Positions 10,711-23,768 of a DNA stretch of 24,849 bases are shown piece after piece. The DNA lies in the IMG/VR virus record IMGVR_UViG_3300044970_001163, positions 1-24,849 of that record. The stretch is one strand, 5' to 3'. Numbering within the stretch: position 1 is the first letter of the stretch; each line of letters begins with the position of its first letter. Source of the stretch: a virus. The notes beneath the pieces were generated by a model that saw nothing but the letters and a program-made list of their open reading frames with translations, had not been told where the DNA came from and ran no database searches. Made by a program: the position numbers and the translations under genes.

Positions 10711-12000
10711 TTATAGGTTTTTATATTTGTCTAATGCTTGTTTTTTTACTCTGTTTTGGTCTTTTGTTCTACTGCATCCCATATATTGAAGTGCGAAATC
10801 GTTTTTCATTATCGTTATACATACTGCTTTCCAACTTGGTATATGTCTAAAATCAAACTTCTTTGTTTCTTCGGGGAAATCGCTTTTAATTTTTACTATC
10901 TCATAGATATTATCTTTAGTACATAGCTTTGAAACCTCTTTAGTATTTTCAACTTCTAATCCTATATCCTGCATATACTTTATAACATCGGGATTTCTAC
11001 CATAACCCTTATCGACCCAACTTTTCTGAAATCTTTCTAAATGAAATTTAAACTTTTTTTTTGTCACTTCGGGTAATGTATCCATAAGGAAATAAGCGTA
11101 CTGCTTCCAAGTAAAATGTTCTGGCTTCGATATTGTTCGCCATCCCATAGCAGAAGTACCACCATAAATACCTCCAAAGTTACAACCATTAACCCTGCCA
11201 ACCATACGACCCCAGTTATTGGGGTCTATTACTCTGTAAAGTTTTAAATTATCCTGCCCTGATAAATGGAATGGGGATGCTACCCTCATTTGGTCTATTG
11301 TTAAACCTGCCTGATAGTATAAATCATAAATCTTATTATAGTCAAATTCATACTTTGCATTACATACCCATATATCCTCTGTTATCCAATCGTAAATTGG
11401 GTAAAAGTTTGTAGTATTTTTGTCCACTATTTTAGAATAGTTTAACCCCTTATGCATATGCTTTCTATGTTGCGAAGTAAAAATAGCACGTCTTGTCAAA
11501 CTTTCTTGTGCTCTAATTCCAATCAATACGGCAGTCTTACCATACTTATCCCCAAACCATTTAGAAAAATGTATCCTTGCATCAAAACCTTTAGTACCTT
11601 TAATAAATTCATAAGGGCAATTATCCTCATTAACTACATAGTCAAATTCAGGCATCGGTCTAACCCATATATCTTTCTTATCCTTATCCCAAGGTATCCA
11701 ACGTGGCTCATACATTGAAACAGAACAAGCAGCCGAAATAGGTAAACATAACCAATATTTACGCTCTACTTCTAAATCTCTAAAGGCTCTTTCTGCGTAC
11801 TCATCAGTATATCTGTATCCTGCTTCGTAATCTTCATAGTAAAATGCAAGTTTATGTAATAAATTATTTTCTTTAGCATACTTATACGCTAAATTTAACA
11901 CAATACCTGAATCTTTACCACACGAAAAGGCTACTAATACATTCTCAAAATCCCTGAAAATAATTTCTAATCTTTTTTGTGTTGCATCGTAAACGTTCAT
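10711..12000 (-). CDS. PAPS reductase-family / DUF3440 protein (IbrA-like)
   Basis: A 429-residue protein. The N-terminal PP-loop ATP-pyrophosphatase domain has FSCGKDS (25-31), the adenylylation loop shared by PAPS reductases, DndC and tRNA thiolases. The middle has IGIRAQESLTRRA, typical of the family, and FYPIYDWITEDIW. The C-terminal part (HIPSWKAVCITIMKNDFALQYMG) is the DUF3440 tail. IbrA of E. coli has this architecture. The chemistry is not settled: PP-loop enzymes activate a carbonyl, phosphate or sulfate group with ATP. Its neighbours are the ParB-domain gene, 2 bp downstream, and a small protein repeating its C-terminal module, coupled upstream (ATGA overlap). A metabolic sulfate-reduction role is less likely, because no other sulfur gene is present. 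Confidence 0.88.
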   Translation of the reverse strand: MNVYDATQKRLEIIFRDFENVLVAFSCGKDSGIVLNLAYKYAKENNLLHKLAFYYEDYEAGYRYTDEYAERAFRDLEVERKYWLCLPISAACSVSMYEPRWIPWDKDKKDIWVRPMPEFDYVVNEDNCPYEFIKGTKGFDARIHFSKWFGDKYGKTAVLIGIRAQESLTRRAIFTSQHRKHMHKGLNYSKIVDKNTTNFYPIYDWITEDIWVCNAKYEFDYNKIYDLYYQAGLTIDQMRVASPFHLSGQDNLKLYRVIDPNNWGRMVGRVNGCNFGGIYGGTSAMGWRTISKPEHFTWKQYAYFLMDTLPEVTKKKFKFHLERFQKSWVDKGYGRNPDVIKYMQDIGLEVENTKEVSKLCTKDNIYEIVKIKSDFPEETKKFDFRHIPSWKAVCITIMKNDFALQYMGCSRTKDQNRVKKQALDKYKNL

Positions 12001-14950: not shown

Positions 14951-15343
14951 CTACTTTCTTATCAAAAATCCAATTATTCCACCAAATATAAGTAATACCC
15001 ACCAAAAACGATTTAAAGACTTTATAGGCTCTTTAACCACCTCTTTGGTATCTTTGCTAACTTTTATATCTTTCGTGCCCTGTAGCGTCTTATTTTGGCT
15101 TTCTACGGCTATTATTCGCTTGATATTGGTTATGTACTCTTTTCTGATAGTATCGTAGATAGTTTCATACTCGAAAATCGTTTCATTTCTTACGCTATCC
15201 TTAATCGAGTAAACCTCTTTAACCACGCTATCTATTCGTTGCTCTGTAACGTGCTTTGTTTTGCATCCACATAATACCATTAAGTAGATAATTGCTATGT
15301 AAATAAGTAGAAGTCTATCTATTGCTTTTAGTTTCATATTCAT
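14951..15343 (-). CDS. Putative u-spanin (unimolecular spanin), 130 aa
   Basis: The N-terminus carries a hydrophobic signal (LLLIYIAIIYLMVLCGC, 11-27) ending in a lipobox-like LCGC, so Cys27 would be lipidated. A periplasmic, charged/coiled region follows (residues 30-110), and the C-terminus is a transmembrane segment FWWVLLIFGGIIGFLI (113-128). A lipoprotein end in the outer membrane plus a C-terminal inner-membrane anchor is the topology of u-spanins such as T1 gp11, which fuse inner and outer membranes in the last step of lysis. It may start at M3 (15337). It overlaps the DUF3310 gene by 29 bp and lies apart from the holin-endolysin cluster. Topology supports the call; sequence does not name it. 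Confidence 0.72.
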   Translation of the reverse strand: MNMKLKAIDRLLLIYIAIIYLMVLCGCKTKHVTEQRIDSVVKEVYSIKDSVRNETIFEYETIYDTIRKEYITNIKRIIAVESQNKTLQGTKDIKVSKDTKEVVKEPIKSLNRFWWVLLIFGGIIGFLIRK

Positions 15344-17440: not shown

Positions 17441-17893
17441 TTAGTTACTATAATACAATTCTGCTTCGGCTTTTCTTCTTCTCGTAAGCCCAGAGATTTC
17501 TTTTCCACCTGCTTTATTCCATCGTAAAAATTGATTAAATATAGCTTCTGATGTTGGCATAGCCTTGACAAGTTTTAATAGCGTAGAAGTCTTTAAATTG
17601 CCTAATCCACAATTATAAGCGAATGATACCAAAGCATCAAATTGATTTTGATTGAGTTTAGTTTTTCCTATTAACTCGTTTACTCCTTTTTCAAACTTCT
17701 GTAAATCGTGCATTAAATATTCCTTTGCTTGTTCTAATGTTATTGGTTTGTCGGTCATTGAAACCTTTACTCCGTTTGGGTAAATCGTTGTTCCTACTCC
17801 GATTGTCGCAACATTCGCAGAGCATAGATAAGGCTTTGTTCTTATACCCTCAAAAGCAATGATAAACTCAATACCTTTTTTACTTATCTTCAT
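17441..17893 (-). CDS. Endolysin, GH24 (T4-lysozyme-like), 150 aa
   Basis: A 150-residue GH24 muramidase: GIEFIIAFEGIRTKPYL with catalytic Glu15, then ATIGVGTT with Thr30, the DAL-x-SFAYNCG helix motif (around 87-96), and FLRWNKAGGKEISGLTRRR (122-140). At the position of the catalytic Asp (T4 Asp20) it has Cys24; the spacing Glu15-Cys24-Thr30 equals that of T4 Glu11-Asp20-Thr26. No signal peptide is visible, so export needs a holin. Its start overlaps the 69-aa membrane protein gene by 4 bp. The enzyme cleaves the glycan backbone of peptidoglycan at lysis. Confidence 0.93.
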   Translation of the reverse strand: MKISKKGIEFIIAFEGIRTKPYLCSANVATIGVGTTIYPNGVKVSMTDKPITLEQAKEYLMHDLQKFEKGVNELIGKTKLNQNQFDALVSFAYNCGLGNLKTSTLLKLVKAMPTSEAIFNQFLRWNKAGGKEISGLTRRRKAEAELYYSN

Positions 17894-18099
17894 TTGCTAT
17901 GTACTGATTTTGTGTTTGTCCAAAATTTAATGCCAACTAATAGCACAGTAAAAATAAACGTAACCCAATATTTAGGTTTATCACTTATCGGCATAGAATC
18001 CAACATCGGCTGAATAGCCACTAATAGTACTAGGGCAAAGTCGCCAACTTGTCGCCAATACTTCGGCGTAGGTTCTGAATATCTTTTCTGTAAACTCAT
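17890..18099 (-). CDS. Putative holin, two-TM, 69 aa
   Basis: Two hydrophobic segments, FALVLLVAIQPML (about 21-33) and WVTFIFTVLLVGIKFW (45-60), joined by a short turn PISDKPK, with basic residues at both ends: class II holin topology. It is directly followed by the endolysin gene with a 4-bp overlap and preceded by another small membrane protein gene. Holins time lysis by making lesions in the inner membrane that release the endolysin. The sequence names no family, so the role is inferred from topology and position. Confidence 0.75.
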   Translation of the reverse strand: MSLQKRYSEPTPKYWRQVGDFALVLLVAIQPMLDSMPISDKPKYWVTFIFTVLLVGIKFWTNTKSVHSK

Positions 18100-18347
18100 T
18101 TTAAATAGTCTTTAATTATTGGTAAAATTTTAGAACCTAATGGGATAGTACCACAAGACAATATCCCCACAAGCATCCACATATACTTTTCTAATTTAAA
18201 TAATTTCTTTTCAAGATTACTCAAACGAGTTATTACACCAGCACCAGTCAAATCAGTATCAACTAAAGTATTGTATAAACCATCTACTTTATGTAGCACC
18301 TCTGTCATTTGAGCATTTAGCCGTATTAGTTCATCCCTTTCGCTCAT
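18096..18347 (-). CDS. Membrane protein with coiled coil, holin-like, 83 aa
   Basis: The first 50 residues form a helical coiled-coil-like stretch (ERDELIRLNAQMTEVLHKVDG, then ITRLSNLEKKLFKLEKY), then one membrane segment MWMLVGILSCGTIPLG (about 56-71) and a short tail. A cytoplasmic coiled coil before one TM is the layout of XhlA-type lysis proteins, which partner a two-TM holin, here encoded next (4-bp overlap). Could be a second holin, an antiholin or a regulator of the first. It is coupled to the lipase gene upstream. Confidence 0.7.
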   Translation of the reverse strand: MSERDELIRLNAQMTEVLHKVDGLYNTLVDTDLTGAGVITRLSNLEKKLFKLEKYMWMLVGILSCGTIPLGSKILPIIKDYLK

Positions 18348-18967
18348 AACTTATTAATATATTCATCTATATCGTGGTCGTAAAATGGATTGAACTTTTG
18401 TCCTTTACTCCACGCCTTTAAATGTGATTTTATCCTATCAAAAAATTTAATACTACTATGTTTTTTACCATCGTAATCTAAATAAACTAATTCTCCAAAA
18501 TGCTTATAACCTAAACTTGGTAACTGCGTAACGATGTCGTTATTGTTTCTTACTCGTGTATGGTTTACTTTTACTTTAGCGTGTTTATCCATTACCATTG
18601 GGCATCCATAAGTAACACTCGTACCCTCAATGTATAACCCTGAAATAAATGCCAAAGCACCTCCGTAAGAATGTCCAGTAAAATAAATAGGTTTATTAGG
18701 TAAGTTATCTCTTAACTCCCTTGCTATTAAATCCCACGACTTTTTAAACCCCTTGTGCATCTTACCGTAAACCGTATCAGTAAAACCTGCTTGGAGATTA
18801 TATGCCCAGTCTTTAGGCTCATCAGAACCTCTAAAAACGACTACACACGCTTCGCCAACTTCAAGAATATAAGCCTGAACTCCACGCTTGTTAATAGTGT
18901 GTAAGACTTTATAATCAAACACACCACTATAAGCCCCTTTCGATATACTAGCTAATTGCTTCAGCAC
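18344..18967 (-). CDS. Class 3 lipase-family hydrolase in the lysis cassette
   Basis: A 207-residue alpha/beta hydrolase with the lipase_3 pattern: CVVVFRGSDEPKDWAYNLQ (41-59), HKGFKKSW (71-78), the nucleophile elbow GHSYGGA (98-104, Ser100), then NNNDIVTQLP (141-150, Asp144) and DHDIDEYI (197-204, His198). A Ser-Asp-His triad of this layout fits lipases and phospholipases. The start is GTG 18967, because a stop codon lies immediately upstream and no early ATG exists. There is no signal peptide. It is coupled (ATGA) to the holin/endolysin genes, so it may attack membrane lipids during lysis. Substrate is unknown. Confidence 0.88.
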   Translation of the reverse strand: MLKQLASISKGAYSGVFDYKVLHTINKRGVQAYILEVGEACVVVFRGSDEPKDWAYNLQAGFTDTVYGKMHKGFKKSWDLIARELRDNLPNKPIYFTGHSYGGALAFISGLYIEGTSVTYGCPMVMDKHAKVKVNHTRVRNNNDIVTQLPSLGYKHFGELVYLDYDGKKHSSIKFFDRIKSHLKAWSKGQKFNPFYDHDIDEYINKL

Positions 18968-19154
18968 CTAAACTAGATAAAACAACCTCAAATAAATTTT
19001 CTTCTGTAATGCTTCCATCTGTTGCCATTTGCCCACTTCCTACTTCTTCTTCGGTAGCATCAAACAACTGATAAGTAATTACATTTTCTTTTAATTGTGC
19101 ATCAACAAAACAAACCTCGTTGTTTGCGATTACCTTACTCTGAATCTTTACCAT
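18948..19154 (-). CDS. Hypothetical protein, 68 aa
   Basis: A 68-residue acidic protein with a beta-rich first half (VKIQSKVIANNEVCFVDAQL, VITYQLFDATEEEVGSGQM) and a helical end (EENLFEVVLSSLGAEAI). No family is recognised. It lies between a 51-aa gene and the lipase gene with overlaps of 20 bp at each end. Perhaps a minor virion component, given the block it lies in, but that is not shown. Confidence 0.65.
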   Translation of the reverse strand: MVKIQSKVIANNEVCFVDAQLKENVITYQLFDATEEEVGSGQMATDGSITEENLFEVVLSSLGAEAIS

Positions 19155-19290
19155 TTGTTAATTCGTTAATTTCGTTTGTTAAATTTTGCAATGCGACTGC
19201 AATAGTTGCTGAATCACTTAATGTATAAGCCCCTGCTTTGTTAGCGATTTCCAACGCTTGTGCGATTGTTTGTAAATTTTCTGTTATCAT
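19135..19290 (-). CDS. Small protein after the fibre gene, 51 aa
   Basis: ATG 19290 starts 2 bp after the fibre stop; the frame runs 51 codons to TAA 19135 and overlaps the next gene by 20 bp. The product, MITENLQTIAQALEIANKAG then AYTLSDSATIAVALQNLTNEI, is a helical protein with a pattern I recall from small ORFs next to phage fibre genes in Bacteroidota (ALxxANxxGAYxLxDA). It could be a chaperone or trimerisation partner for the fibre. The function is unknown. Confidence 0.65.
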   Translation of the reverse strand: MITENLQTIAQALEIANKAGAYTLSDSATIAVALQNLTNEINELTNGKDSE

Positions 19291-19292
19291 AA

Positions 19293-20738
19293 TTATACGT
19301 TTGTTGCTAATAAATAATATGTTACCCCACCAATAACGATTGTTACTTTATGTGTGCTTGGTGTTGCTACTGATGCAGCTACTGTATTACCGATTGCTAA
19401 TGCACCCGTAACCCTTGCAGTTCCAGTTACTTGTAATTTTTCTGCCCCTGCTAATGGTGTTGAACTACCTATTTGCAAATTTCCATTTAAAAAACTTGCA
19501 GCAGTACCATTCATATATAAATTCCAATTAGTAGATGCCGATGGTAAATTACCATAGAACCCATAATTATTCGTACCTCCTACAATAGAACTATCTGCAA
19601 TGTACCCAAATTGATTTGTAACCGTAGACCCTGCACCAAACGACGAAACAGATGCTTTAAAATGATATAAATTTGTAAGAGTGAATGCAGTTGCTTGTGT
19701 TGATGCTAATGATTCAAAGTATCCAACATTTGCGGTTACATCACTTTGAATTTGCCCTTGTGAGAAAATATTAGAAACAGTTGTTGAACCCGTTATACTT
19801 CTATTAACCCTTAAATTAAATCCAGTTAGTGAAGATGTACCTATCCCTAATTTATCAAATTGTGGTGCTGAACTTGTCGCAATACTTTGTGGCAAACTCA
19901 ATGTAATACTCCCTGATGCGTTTGTAACTGTAATTTGATTTGCAGTTCCAGTTAGTGCAGCAGCTACATAGTTAGTCCCGTTTCCAATCGGTAAAAATCC
20001 ATTGCTTGGTGTTGTTGTTATCCCTAATCCTCCATTGCCAACTGCTAATGTTCCTGAAATATGAGTAGTTAACCCTATTTTGCCCCAACTTGGAGCAGCC
20101 CCAACACCTCCCGAAATTAATGAGTTACCAGTTGCAACACCTGCTAATTTACTCAAAGCAGAACTCGTAGAAGCGTATAAAATATCCCCTATTGCGTAAC
20201 TTGATTGTCCAGTACCTCCATTAGGTGCAGTCAAGGCAGCCGTTAAACTTAAAGCAGCAAATGTAGGACTTGAAGTTGTAGCTAAACTTTGTGGCAAAGC
20301 TAATGTAATACCACCAACCGAATGAGTAACTGTTACTTGGTTTGTAGTACCTGCTAATGTTTTATATTCTTGTGCTGTTGCAGCATTATTCATTCCTAAT
20401 AATTGGTTTGCAGTTCCTTTGGCTAAATTTACCCAATTAGTACCATTATACACAAAAATATCCCCTTGTGCAACGCTTGTTAAAACAACATCAGTTAACC
20501 CATCTAAATTAAAATTGGCATTTACCCATTTAAAAGTAACCGTATCCCATTGTAAAACTTGTTTATCTTGAATAGTAGTAATTACTACATCCTGCAACTC
20601 CTCTAATGATAATGTTTCGGCTATTACTATCCGTAAATCATCTATTGAGATTTCTCCATATTCGGCAGTAGTCCCAACTAAAACTATCGTTGGCTTGTTT
20701 ATTGAAGTAAATAACGTACCATCATCGTATCTTGGCAT
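19293..20738 (-). CDS. Phage tail-fibre or surface protein with repeats, 481 aa
   Basis: A low-complexity, Ser/Thr/Gly/Asn-rich structural protein. The N-terminus has a pair of repeats of the form L-x-DV-x-x-T ... WVN (48-73 and 81-105). The central region has two copies of a longer unit, GTTNQVTVTHSVGGITLALP at 130-149 and GTANQITVTNASGSITLSLP at 264-283, each followed by Q-S-hydrophobic-A-T. GGTGQSSYAIGDILYAS is characteristic of phage fibre proteins. The C-terminal half is a beta-rich region ending KVTIVIGGVTYYLLATNV, possibly the tip. It probably makes an elongated trimer. Receptor unknown; it could equally be a neck fibre. Confidence 0.82.
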   Translation of the reverse strand: MPRYDDGTLFTSINKPTIVLVGTTAEYGEISIDDLRIVIAETLSLEELQDVVITTIQDKQVLQWDTVTFKWVNANFNLDGLTDVVLTSVAQGDIFVYNGTNWVNLAKGTANQLLGMNNAATAQEYKTLAGTTNQVTVTHSVGGITLALPQSLATTSSPTFAALSLTAALTAPNGGTGQSSYAIGDILYASTSSALSKLAGVATGNSLISGGVGAAPSWGKIGLTTHISGTLAVGNGGLGITTTPSNGFLPIGNGTNYVAAALTGTANQITVTNASGSITLSLPQSIATSSAPQFDKLGIGTSSLTGFNLRVNRSITGSTTVSNIFSQGQIQSDVTANVGYFESLASTQATAFTLTNLYHFKASVSSFGAGSTVTNQFGYIADSSIVGGTNNYGFYGNLPSASTNWNLYMNGTAASFLNGNLQIGSSTPLAGAEKLQVTGTARVTGALAIGNTVAASVATPSTHKVTIVIGGVTYYLLATNV

Positions 20739-20749
20739 ATCTTTATAAA

Positions 20750-21139
20750 TTAAGTGTATAACATATCATTGTTTTCATCTGTTATAGGCTCAAAGTTTTC
20801 ATCGTATATAATAGAATCTCTTGCATCTTCTTCTGCTATTATCTTGAAATATTTTCTTCTTTCGTGGATAATTTGGTAAGCGTGGATAATCATTGTTCTA
20901 TTTTCAAATTGTATTCTGTTTTTTTTGCTTAATGGTTTATAATCTTCCCATCTTATTATAACCTCGTAAACTTGGTTTAATGTAATTTGCGAACCATCCA
21001 CACCCCTCGAACCACTTAATGGCGTAACCTTTGCCCATAACGTAATATCAGTACGCTCTGTTGCATCAGTTCCACCTGCTCCATCCGATACTGTAGAGTA
21101 GTTTATTAAACTTATTTGGTCACGTAGTTTACCTATCAT
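20750..21139 (-). CDS. Head closure protein (SPP1 gp16 / HK97 gp7-like head-tail adaptor)
   Basis: A 129-residue protein starting MIGKLRDQISLINYSTVSDG, followed by LWAKVTPLSGSR, YEVIIRWEDYKPLSKKNRIQ and HAYQIIHERRKYFKIIAEE. This is the beta-barrel pattern of the phage head-tail adaptor family (SPP1 gp16): an N-terminal L-R/D-x-I strand, W-A-x-V, then a R-W/Y strand. The protein caps the portal-connector channel and seals the filled head. It overlaps the gp6-like connector gene by 4 bp, the standard order. The C-terminal 20 residues (YDENFEPITDENND) are extra. Confidence 0.85.
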   Translation of the reverse strand: MIGKLRDQISLINYSTVSDGAGGTDATERTDITLWAKVTPLSGSRGVDGSQITLNQVYEVIIRWEDYKPLSKKNRIQFENRTMIIHAYQIIHERRKYFKIIAEEDARDSIIYDENFEPITDENNDMLYT

Positions 21140-21651
21140 ATTCCTAATAATGTATTTCGTGAATAACTTTGTGCCATTCTTTTAGCATCATTCGATAACT
21201 CGTTAAATGTACCTTCTATATAAAAGTTTTCTCTGTTCTCGTAGCTTGTTGCAACCTCTTTTAAAATTGCCACTTTTAAAGCCTTTGGTAGCGTTGTAAA
21301 TCCTGCCGTATATGTTATTGTAACCCCAGTAGAGTTAACGCACCATAGGTACTTATATTCAAGTCCTTTGGTATCGTAGCTTAAAGTATCCCCTGCATCG
21401 TTTATACAAGCACTCACAACTGCATTAGGTTGGTAAGGAATTTCAGCCCACCCATCTAATACATCCCATCTGCATTTTAAAGTCTTTGCACCAAATGAAA
21501 GGTTTGTAAACTTTTCTAATCGCTCCCTTGCATCGGTTATTAATTCGCCTATTAAAGTATCTTCTGCCGTTGTGGTTATTCTTAAATAATCCCTCGCCTC
21601 TGCTACTGTAACTGGTTCACTCGCTAAATCTGTAATTATCTTTACTTCCAT
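21136..21651 (-). CDS. gp6-like head-tail connector protein, 171 aa
   Basis: A 171-residue protein with the pattern of the HK97 gp6 / PhiE125 gp8 connector group: EPVTVAEARDYLRI (12-25), DTLIGELITDARERLEKFTN (31-50), then WDVLDGWAEIPYQPNAVVS and a late helix ALKVAILKEVATSYENREN. It forms a ring below the portal. Its stop overlaps the head-closure start by 4 bp and its ATG shares one base with the stop of the LamG-like gene. Its size is larger than HK97 gp6 (about 110 aa), similar to the gp8-type members. Confidence 0.88.
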   Translation of the reverse strand: MEVKIITDLASEPVTVAEARDYLRITTTAEDTLIGELITDARERLEKFTNLSFGAKTLKCRWDVLDGWAEIPYQPNAVVSACINDAGDTLSYDTKGLEYKYLWCVNSTGVTITYTAGFTTLPKALKVAILKEVATSYENRENFYIEGTFNELSNDAKRMAQSYSRNTLLGI

Positions 21652-23140: not shown

Positions 23141-23155
23141 GCTAAAAGTTTTAGC
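23141..23155. repeat. 15-bp palindrome overlapping the GIY-YIG stop
   Basis: GCTAAAAGTTTTAGC, two 7-bp arms around one base. It overlaps the last codon and the stop of the GIY-YIG gene and lies upstream of the 64-aa gene. It differs from the 17-bp promoter-linked palindrome and is not followed by a T-run, so its role, if any, is unclear. Confidence 0.5.
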
Positions 23156-23768
23156 ATTCTTTGCGATACCTTTTTAATTGGGATATTGACATCTTTAGTC
23201 GTGTTTCTTCGCTTATTGGGTTCTTAATTACTTTTTTAGCAGATTCAGACATTTTACGCTTTGTTTCTTCAGTTCGTTTAGTCCCTAATCGTTTAGCACG
23301 TTGTTTGTCTTTAGTTTCTTGTGAGTATGTTTTACCTATATTATTTTGTCTATGTTTCTCTTTTGTAGCTTCTAATATTACTCTATTTTTATTGGATTCA
23401 ATTAATGCCATTCTTGTATTCTCGTGAATTGACTTACCCCTTAACCCATCGCTAATCTTCTTTTTACTTTCTTCGCTATGCCTACCATTAAAATGCTCTG
23501 ATTTTACATAAAGTAAGTTTAGCCCAGTTTCTACTGAATTAAAATACTCTTGGTAATATCTTTCTTGATTATTTAACTGCTCTTGTGTACATTCTTCAAT
23601 GACCTCGAATTTATGAGCATCTACACCATATTTACATAGCGAGTTGTATAGTTTAGGTTGTTGTTTACATTTAAGATTATAATACTTCCTAAATCTTTTA
23701 TTTATATCAATACTTTGACCGATATAGATTCTATCACTTGGAGAAGTGATTTTATATATTCCTATCAT
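23151..23768 (-). CDS. GIY-YIG homing endonuclease with NUMOD3 repeats
   Basis: A 205-residue free-standing homing endonuclease. The catalytic domain starts with GIY (3-5) and YIG (15-17), has Arg25/Arg27 in NKRFRKYY and the conserved Glu in NNQERYYQEYF. The C-terminal half contains three NUMOD3-type DNA-binding repeats with the form (H/S)xExxxKKxSxxxxG: FNGRHSEESKKKISDG, GKTYSQETKDKQRAK, and TKRTEETKRKMSES followed by NPISEETRLKMSIS. It lies alone between the capsid gene and a small structural gene, with a terminator upstream and its own promoter-like box. All catalytic features appear present. Confidence 0.92.
   Translation of the reverse strand: MIGIYKITSPSDRIYIGQSIDINKRFRKYYNLKCKQQPKLYNSLCKYGVDAHKFEVIEECTQEQLNNQERYYQEYFNSVETGLNLLYVKSEHFNGRHSEESKKKISDGLRGKSIHENTRMALIESNKNRVILEATKEKHRQNNIGKTYSQETKDKQRAKRLGTKRTEETKRKMSESAKKVIKNPISEETRLKMSISQLKRYRKEC

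Follow-up and report, generated by a model that had tools for sequence, protein, structure and literature searches.

Genes of the lipase locus

The window, meaning the whole stretch of DNA analysed here, is a virus record of 24,849 bases (IMGVR_UViG_3300044970_001163) with 33% G+C. A Megablast search of cultured phages with the entire window returned no match, and the window's portal protein was nearest to those of Flavobacterium and Cellulophaga phages, at approximately 26% identity. The virus is a low-GC siphovirus, probably with a host in the Bacteroidota. G057, a relative of 30,831 bases, carries a tape measure protein gene and head genes in a stretch that is missing from the window, indicating that the genome is of the siphovirus type and that the window is a fragment of such a genome. 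The idea of a tail-less or short-tailed virus, raised by the lack of tail tube and tape measure genes in the window, was rejected because the G057 tape measure gene lies in that missing stretch. Elsewhere in the window, an HNH endonuclease gene (2032-2514) lies between the terminase and portal genes, a phosphoadenosine phosphosulfate reductase-like gene (10711-12000; phrog_2302, E 2.7e-95) adjoins a ParB-like gene, and a GIY-YIG homing endonuclease gene (23151-23768) lies downstream of the major head gene.

The locus under study is read from the minus strand. It begins with the head-tail adaptor (21136-21651; phrog_442, E 6.8e-20) and the head closure protein Hc1 (20750-21139; phrog_25, E 1.4e-11), followed by a 481-aa tail fibre or appendage protein (19293-20738; phrog_31660 tail fiber, E 0.0025) in which no enzymatic domain was found. 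Two small ORFs with no assigned function come next. Homologues of the 51-aa ORF (19135-19290) also precede the lipase in L002-L006, L008, and L023, and a distant copy of the 68-aa ORF (18948-19154) is present in L116, a relative that lacks the lipase. The lipase gene itself (18344-18967, 207 aa) is followed by genes for an 83-aa coiled-coil protein, a 69-aa holin-like protein, and an endolysin. The 83-aa protein (18096-18347) is conserved, with orthologues in a sister clade, and is encoded by the first gene of the lysis cassette; it has one C-terminal transmembrane segment (hydrophobic at residues ~57-78) and a weak match to DUF7201 (PF23831, E 0.0011) that falls below the cut-off. The 69-aa protein (17890-18099) has two hydrophobic segments, where hydropathy peaks around residues 18-32 and 46-60, and matched no family in Pfam or PHROGs; its place immediately ahead of the endolysin is retained in both clades described below. 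The endolysin (17441-17893, 150 aa) is of the T4 type and, as the earlier note had proposed, belongs to GH24 (PF00959, E 7.9e-43; phrog_7, E 4.9e-55).

The lipase, the coiled-coil protein, the two-segment membrane protein, and the endolysin had been described as overlapping successively by 4 bp, and both the coordinates and the three ATGA overlaps are real. The accompanying claim, that these overlaps couple the lipase to the holin and endolysin, found no local support: overlaps of 4 bp occur at 9 of the 46 gene junctions in the window, where they are the commonest overlap type, and the coiled-coil and membrane protein genes occur without a lipase in relatives. Runs of at least three such overlaps arose in 20.5% of shuffles, so the overlap alone is unremarkable. 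Moreover, the lipase start overlaps the upstream 68-aa ORF by 20 bp, and the overlapping chain thus begins before the lipase.

Approximately 2 kb downstream of the endolysin, a minus-strand ORF (14951-15343) encodes a 130-aa lipoprotein that combines an N-terminal lipobox (LCGC) and a C-terminal transmembrane segment on one small protein, which is the architecture of a unimolecular spanin. It had no informative family match, and a similar lipoprotein/transmembrane architecture is found in L152 of the sister clade. Because of this candidate spanin, the ordinary holin-endolysin-spanin set appears complete without the lipase. The lipase had been put forward as an activity beyond the usual set; it still fits as an extra, but one that the set does not seem to need.

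The lipase and its family

The identification of the product as a lipase held up. It matched Lipase_3 (PF01764) with an E-value of 8.8e-18 and 65 bits, above the curated cut-off of 22, and the PHROG esterase/lipase family 21992 (phrog_21992) over residues 37-165. The proposed triad is intact: Ser100 (in GHSYG), Asp144, and His198 occupy the expected positions and are invariant in 65 relatives. The AF2 model had a pLDDT of 91.6, and the best Foldseek match in the PDB was 6qpp (E 4.9e-13, TMq 0.69). In structure the model most resembled fungal class 3 lipases and feruloyl esterase, with plant phospholipase A1 next. Profile match, GxSxG/Asp/His triad, and alpha/beta-hydrolase fold of the fungal lipase type thus all place the protein among the class 3 lipases. 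Compared with the fungal enzymes, which have ~260-270 aa, it is shorter and lacks a secretion signal. Confidence in the model was lowest for residues 51-60, after the FRGS motif; this block aligns with what we take to be the lid of the Thermomyces lipase. The matches in PHROGs, Pfam, NCBIfam, and the PDB were to class 3 lipases or, weakly, to general hydrolases, with none to the LysB family or to cutinase-like proteins.

The gene starts with GTG directly after an in-frame stop codon, and relatives have ATG at the same spot. The protein showed neither a hydrophobic nor a signal segment, in agreement with the earlier description of a lipase without a signal peptide. Against its relatives the lipase showed dN/dS values of 0.11-0.32, with dS near saturation in the more distant pairs. 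Given the triad, the predicted fold, and these dN/dS values, the protein is very likely an active enzyme maintained by selection. Decay of the active site was considered and rejected on the basis of dN/dS and the conserved triad.

Lipase neighbourhoods in close and distant relatives

Close relatives were collected via the head-tail adaptor and fell into clade A (adaptor 80-100% identical) and clade B (60-64%). In nine clade A contigs, a fibre gene or Hc1 is followed by the lipase, coiled-coil, membrane protein, and GH24 genes; in L007 the lipase comes immediately after Hc1, with no fibre between them. In three other clade A relatives (L107, L116, and L121), the coiled-coil and membrane protein pair follows the fibre locus without a lipase. 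No Lipase_3 match was found in the records of these three, one of which is 30.8 kb and the other two short fragments. GH24 is kept in two of them, and in L116 a DUF5675 protein follows the membrane protein instead. Because the bases AAGAAGTTATGA ahead of the coiled-coil gene of L107 match the last codons of the L002 lipase, the L107 sequence suggests that this lineage once had a lipase that was lost or swapped out.

Clade B comprises sister siphoviruses whose lipases are 60-63% identical to that of the window. Here the lipase lies in the tail operon between a fibre-base gene and a neck gene, which it overlaps by 4 bp, and it is followed by the tail terminator, the major tail proteins, and the tape measure. 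An orthologous cassette of coiled-coil protein (35-42% identical), membrane protein, and GH24 (57%) lies ~7 kb past the lipase and contains no lipase of its own. The upstream neighbours of the lipase (Hc1/head closure and fibre) are retained in both clades; the lipase thus stays with these neighbours, and the lysis cassette forms a separate unit. The clade A tape measure is instead placed ahead of the head genes, which brings the lipase and the lysis cassette into contact. As the gene orders read, the contact in the window accompanies another position of the tail module and is not conserved. A lipase beside the lysis cassette was found in the nine clade A contigs, but not in the three lipase-less relatives or in clade B. 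Judged from gene content, the lipase is an optional accessory in this virus group.

The cassettes of the lipase-less and related contigs vary in other respects. An ORF resembling a GIY-YIG homing endonuclease by eye (L107:4525-5268) lies between the holin-like gene and the endolysin gene of L107, whose endolysin is 89% identical to that of the window. At L116:3900-4837 and L118:248-1074, the holin-like gene (94% and 87% identical) is followed by a gene for a DUF5675 protein (PF18925, tested in L116) in place of GH24, and in both cases a small membrane-anchored protein is encoded next. The DUF5675 protein may serve as an endolysin.

The distant set comprised the best 80 of more than 500 phage relatives from a profile scan, and the neighbours of 88 loci were clustered. 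The lipases of these distant metagenomic phages were 30-38% identical to the window lipase. Recurrent neighbours at the 88 loci were Rz-like spanins (PHROG 812, 739, and 1152), a GTA_holin_3TM holin, DUF7201 coiled-coil/transmembrane proteins, and GH24. In 12 of the 18 records with a spanin pair, the pair lay no more than 1.5 kb from the lipase (20,000 random placements gave a mean of 3.7 records and a maximum of 10), although the records are not independent; among records longer than 30 kb, which are likewise not independent, the count was 6 of 11 against 0.8 at random. Spanin proximity is therefore above chance, and the wider phage lipase family is associated with lysis genes. GH24 lies immediately ahead of the lipase in five loci (L033, L034, L079, L091, and L094). 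In L091 and L094, GH24 and the lipase are followed by a membrane protein and an Rz/Rz1-like spanin pair; these metagenomic phages, which are only distant relatives of the window, thus have a predicted lysis cassette with the lipase inside it. In another group the GTA_holin_3TM holin lies one or two genes downstream of the lipase, and spanins are upstream of it in some lineages and downstream in others. Across the lipase tree, the lysis-neighbour label switches at least 8-12 times, indicating that adjacency of lipase and lysis genes repeatedly arose or was lost.

At 40 of the 75 loci with readable context, no recognised lysis neighbour was present. Among cultured phages the lipase had only distant matches, in giant and cyanobacterial phages, and none of these lay in a recognisable lysis cassette: the related gene of cyanophage P-SSM2 is found among tRNA ligase, primase, and nrdA genes, and that of Cylindrospermopsis phages adjoins a dCTP deaminase gene. 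A scan of bacterial genomes with the lipase returned relatives of only 29-36% identity. As a separate observation, L088:5740-6039 and ~28 similar loci encode a small protein that has a hydrophobic N-terminus and a coiled coil and matches no family; it immediately follows the lipase in 24 of the 29.

Role of the lipase

We tentatively favour, at somewhat less than even probability, a late, soluble, and unexported class 3 lipase/esterase that serves as an optional accessory and acts when the cell opens at lysis. Late expression is inferred from the position of the gene. The lipase would accumulate in the cytoplasm and meet its substrate only once holin and endolysin have opened the cell. The freed enzyme would then hydrolyse acyl esters of envelope (phospho)lipids and weaken membrane remnants, which may help the release or dispersal of progeny, and it would stand outside the core lysis machinery. 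The invariant triad, the predicted fold, purifying selection, the lack of an export signal, and the lysis-gene neighbours in distant phages all speak for such a late lipase. Points against it are the three lipase-less relatives and the separate clade B cassette, the conservation of Hc1 and the fibre as neighbours instead of lysis genes, the P-SSM2 and Cylindrospermopsis relatives that lie away from recognised lysis genes, and the candidate spanin that would already cover disruption of the outer membrane. A late, soluble lipase of this kind fits the clade A, clade B, and distant-phage contexts alike. Of the original proposal of a lysis activity, the recurrence of distant relatives beside GH24, holin, and spanin genes remains in favour, whereas a conserved local tie to the cassette is missing.

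The main rival, which we consider unlikely, is a surface esterase of the fibre locus. According to this explanation, the lipase forms part of the receptor-binding locus and deacylates polymers of the cell surface or lipids of the outer membrane; it would be mounted on the tail or, like a depolymerase, set free at lysis. The lipase does come after the fibre locus in both clades, its fold also covers feruloyl esterase, which is active on polysaccharide esters, and virions of cyanophage S-CREM1 contain a predicted lipase (PMC9964418). Among the lipase-less relatives, the L107 fibre carries a beta-helix and K1-lyase_C (PF24146, E 6.6e-16) and the 914-aa L116 fibre (L116:359-3103) a GDPD domain (PF03009, E 2.9e-20), whereas the fibres tested from lipase-bearing relatives (L002, L008, L119, and L023) showed no enzyme domain. 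However, three lipase-less relatives are too few for a test, and the fibre of the third, L121, has no recognised enzyme; a subtilisin-like domain suspected there by eye was unsupported by Pfam or PHROGs. The lipase also lacks a binding, trimerisation, or virion-docking domain, it follows Hc1 without an intervening fibre in L007, and its more distant relatives group with spanins and GH24, not with fibres.

A metabolic or host-takeover gene, whose intracellular product would release fatty acids or remodel lipids in the infected cell and would have no special tie to lysis or the virion, is improbable. The P-SSM2 and Cylindrospermopsis gene contexts and the loci without a recognised lysis neighbour would suit it, but the lipase lies in the late structural block in both clades and the spanin association in distant phages is above chance. 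A dedicated lysis protein, translationally coupled to holin and endolysin and required for full lysis, is quite improbable and less likely than either a late accessory or a surface esterase. It would account for the 4-bp overlaps and gene order in the nine clade A contigs and for the endolysin-lipase-spanin order in distant phages. On the other hand, three relatives have lysis genes without an adjoining lipase, the 30.8-kb record among them has no Lipase_3 at all, and the clade B lipase shows the same 4-bp overlap with a neck gene ~7 kb from the cassette; such overlaps are, moreover, common in the window.

Several known systems resemble parts of this arrangement and, as precedents, speak for the favoured reading. 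LysB of mycobacteriophages Ms6 and D29, the loss of which is tolerated but costly, is likewise a serine lipolytic enzyme of the alpha/beta fold and is encoded in the lysis region (PMC6116114). LysB, however, is cutinase-like and cleaves the mycolic acid-arabinogalactan ester, whereas no mycolata host is indicated for the window and the adjacency of the window lipase to lysis genes is not conserved. In phages of Pseudomonas syringae pv. actinidiae, a GDSL lipase gene lies upstream of holin and endolysin genes, as the lipase gene does in the window, and esterase activity was shown in a chimera (PMC12173070); that lipase differs in having a carbohydrate-binding module and in coming from a family that is not related to the class 3 lipases. 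In phage WO, a proposed patatin cassette also places a lipolytic enzyme next to a small transmembrane/coiled-coil holin-like protein and beside the tail module (PMC9203015). There, however, the enzyme is a patatin proposed to replace the endolysin in a Wolbachia host, while the window has a GH24 endolysin.

Lysis cassettes with a lipolytic enzyme inside or nearby are thus already known or proposed, and phage class 3 lipases are an established PHROG family (21992), with which, as with Pfam Lipase_3 and its fungal-type lipases, the window lipase shares family match, triad, and fold. No description of a class 3 lipase as a phage lysis protein was found in the literature searched, which comprised open-licence papers. 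The usual account of lysis in Gram-negative hosts invokes only holin, endolysin, and spanin. It is possible, if on the unlikely side, that class 3 lipases are widespread, unrecognised lysis or dispersal enzymes in Gram-negative phages that act beside spanins on membranes opened by holin and endolysin, with the window lineage as an optional carrier. If this were true, the lipases recurring near lysis genes would add an enzymatic membrane step to lysis. The recurrent association in distant phages is a more interesting lead than the window itself. The window case cautions against inferring function from overlapping genes, since comparison of its relatives indicates that the contact goes with a rearrangement of modules.
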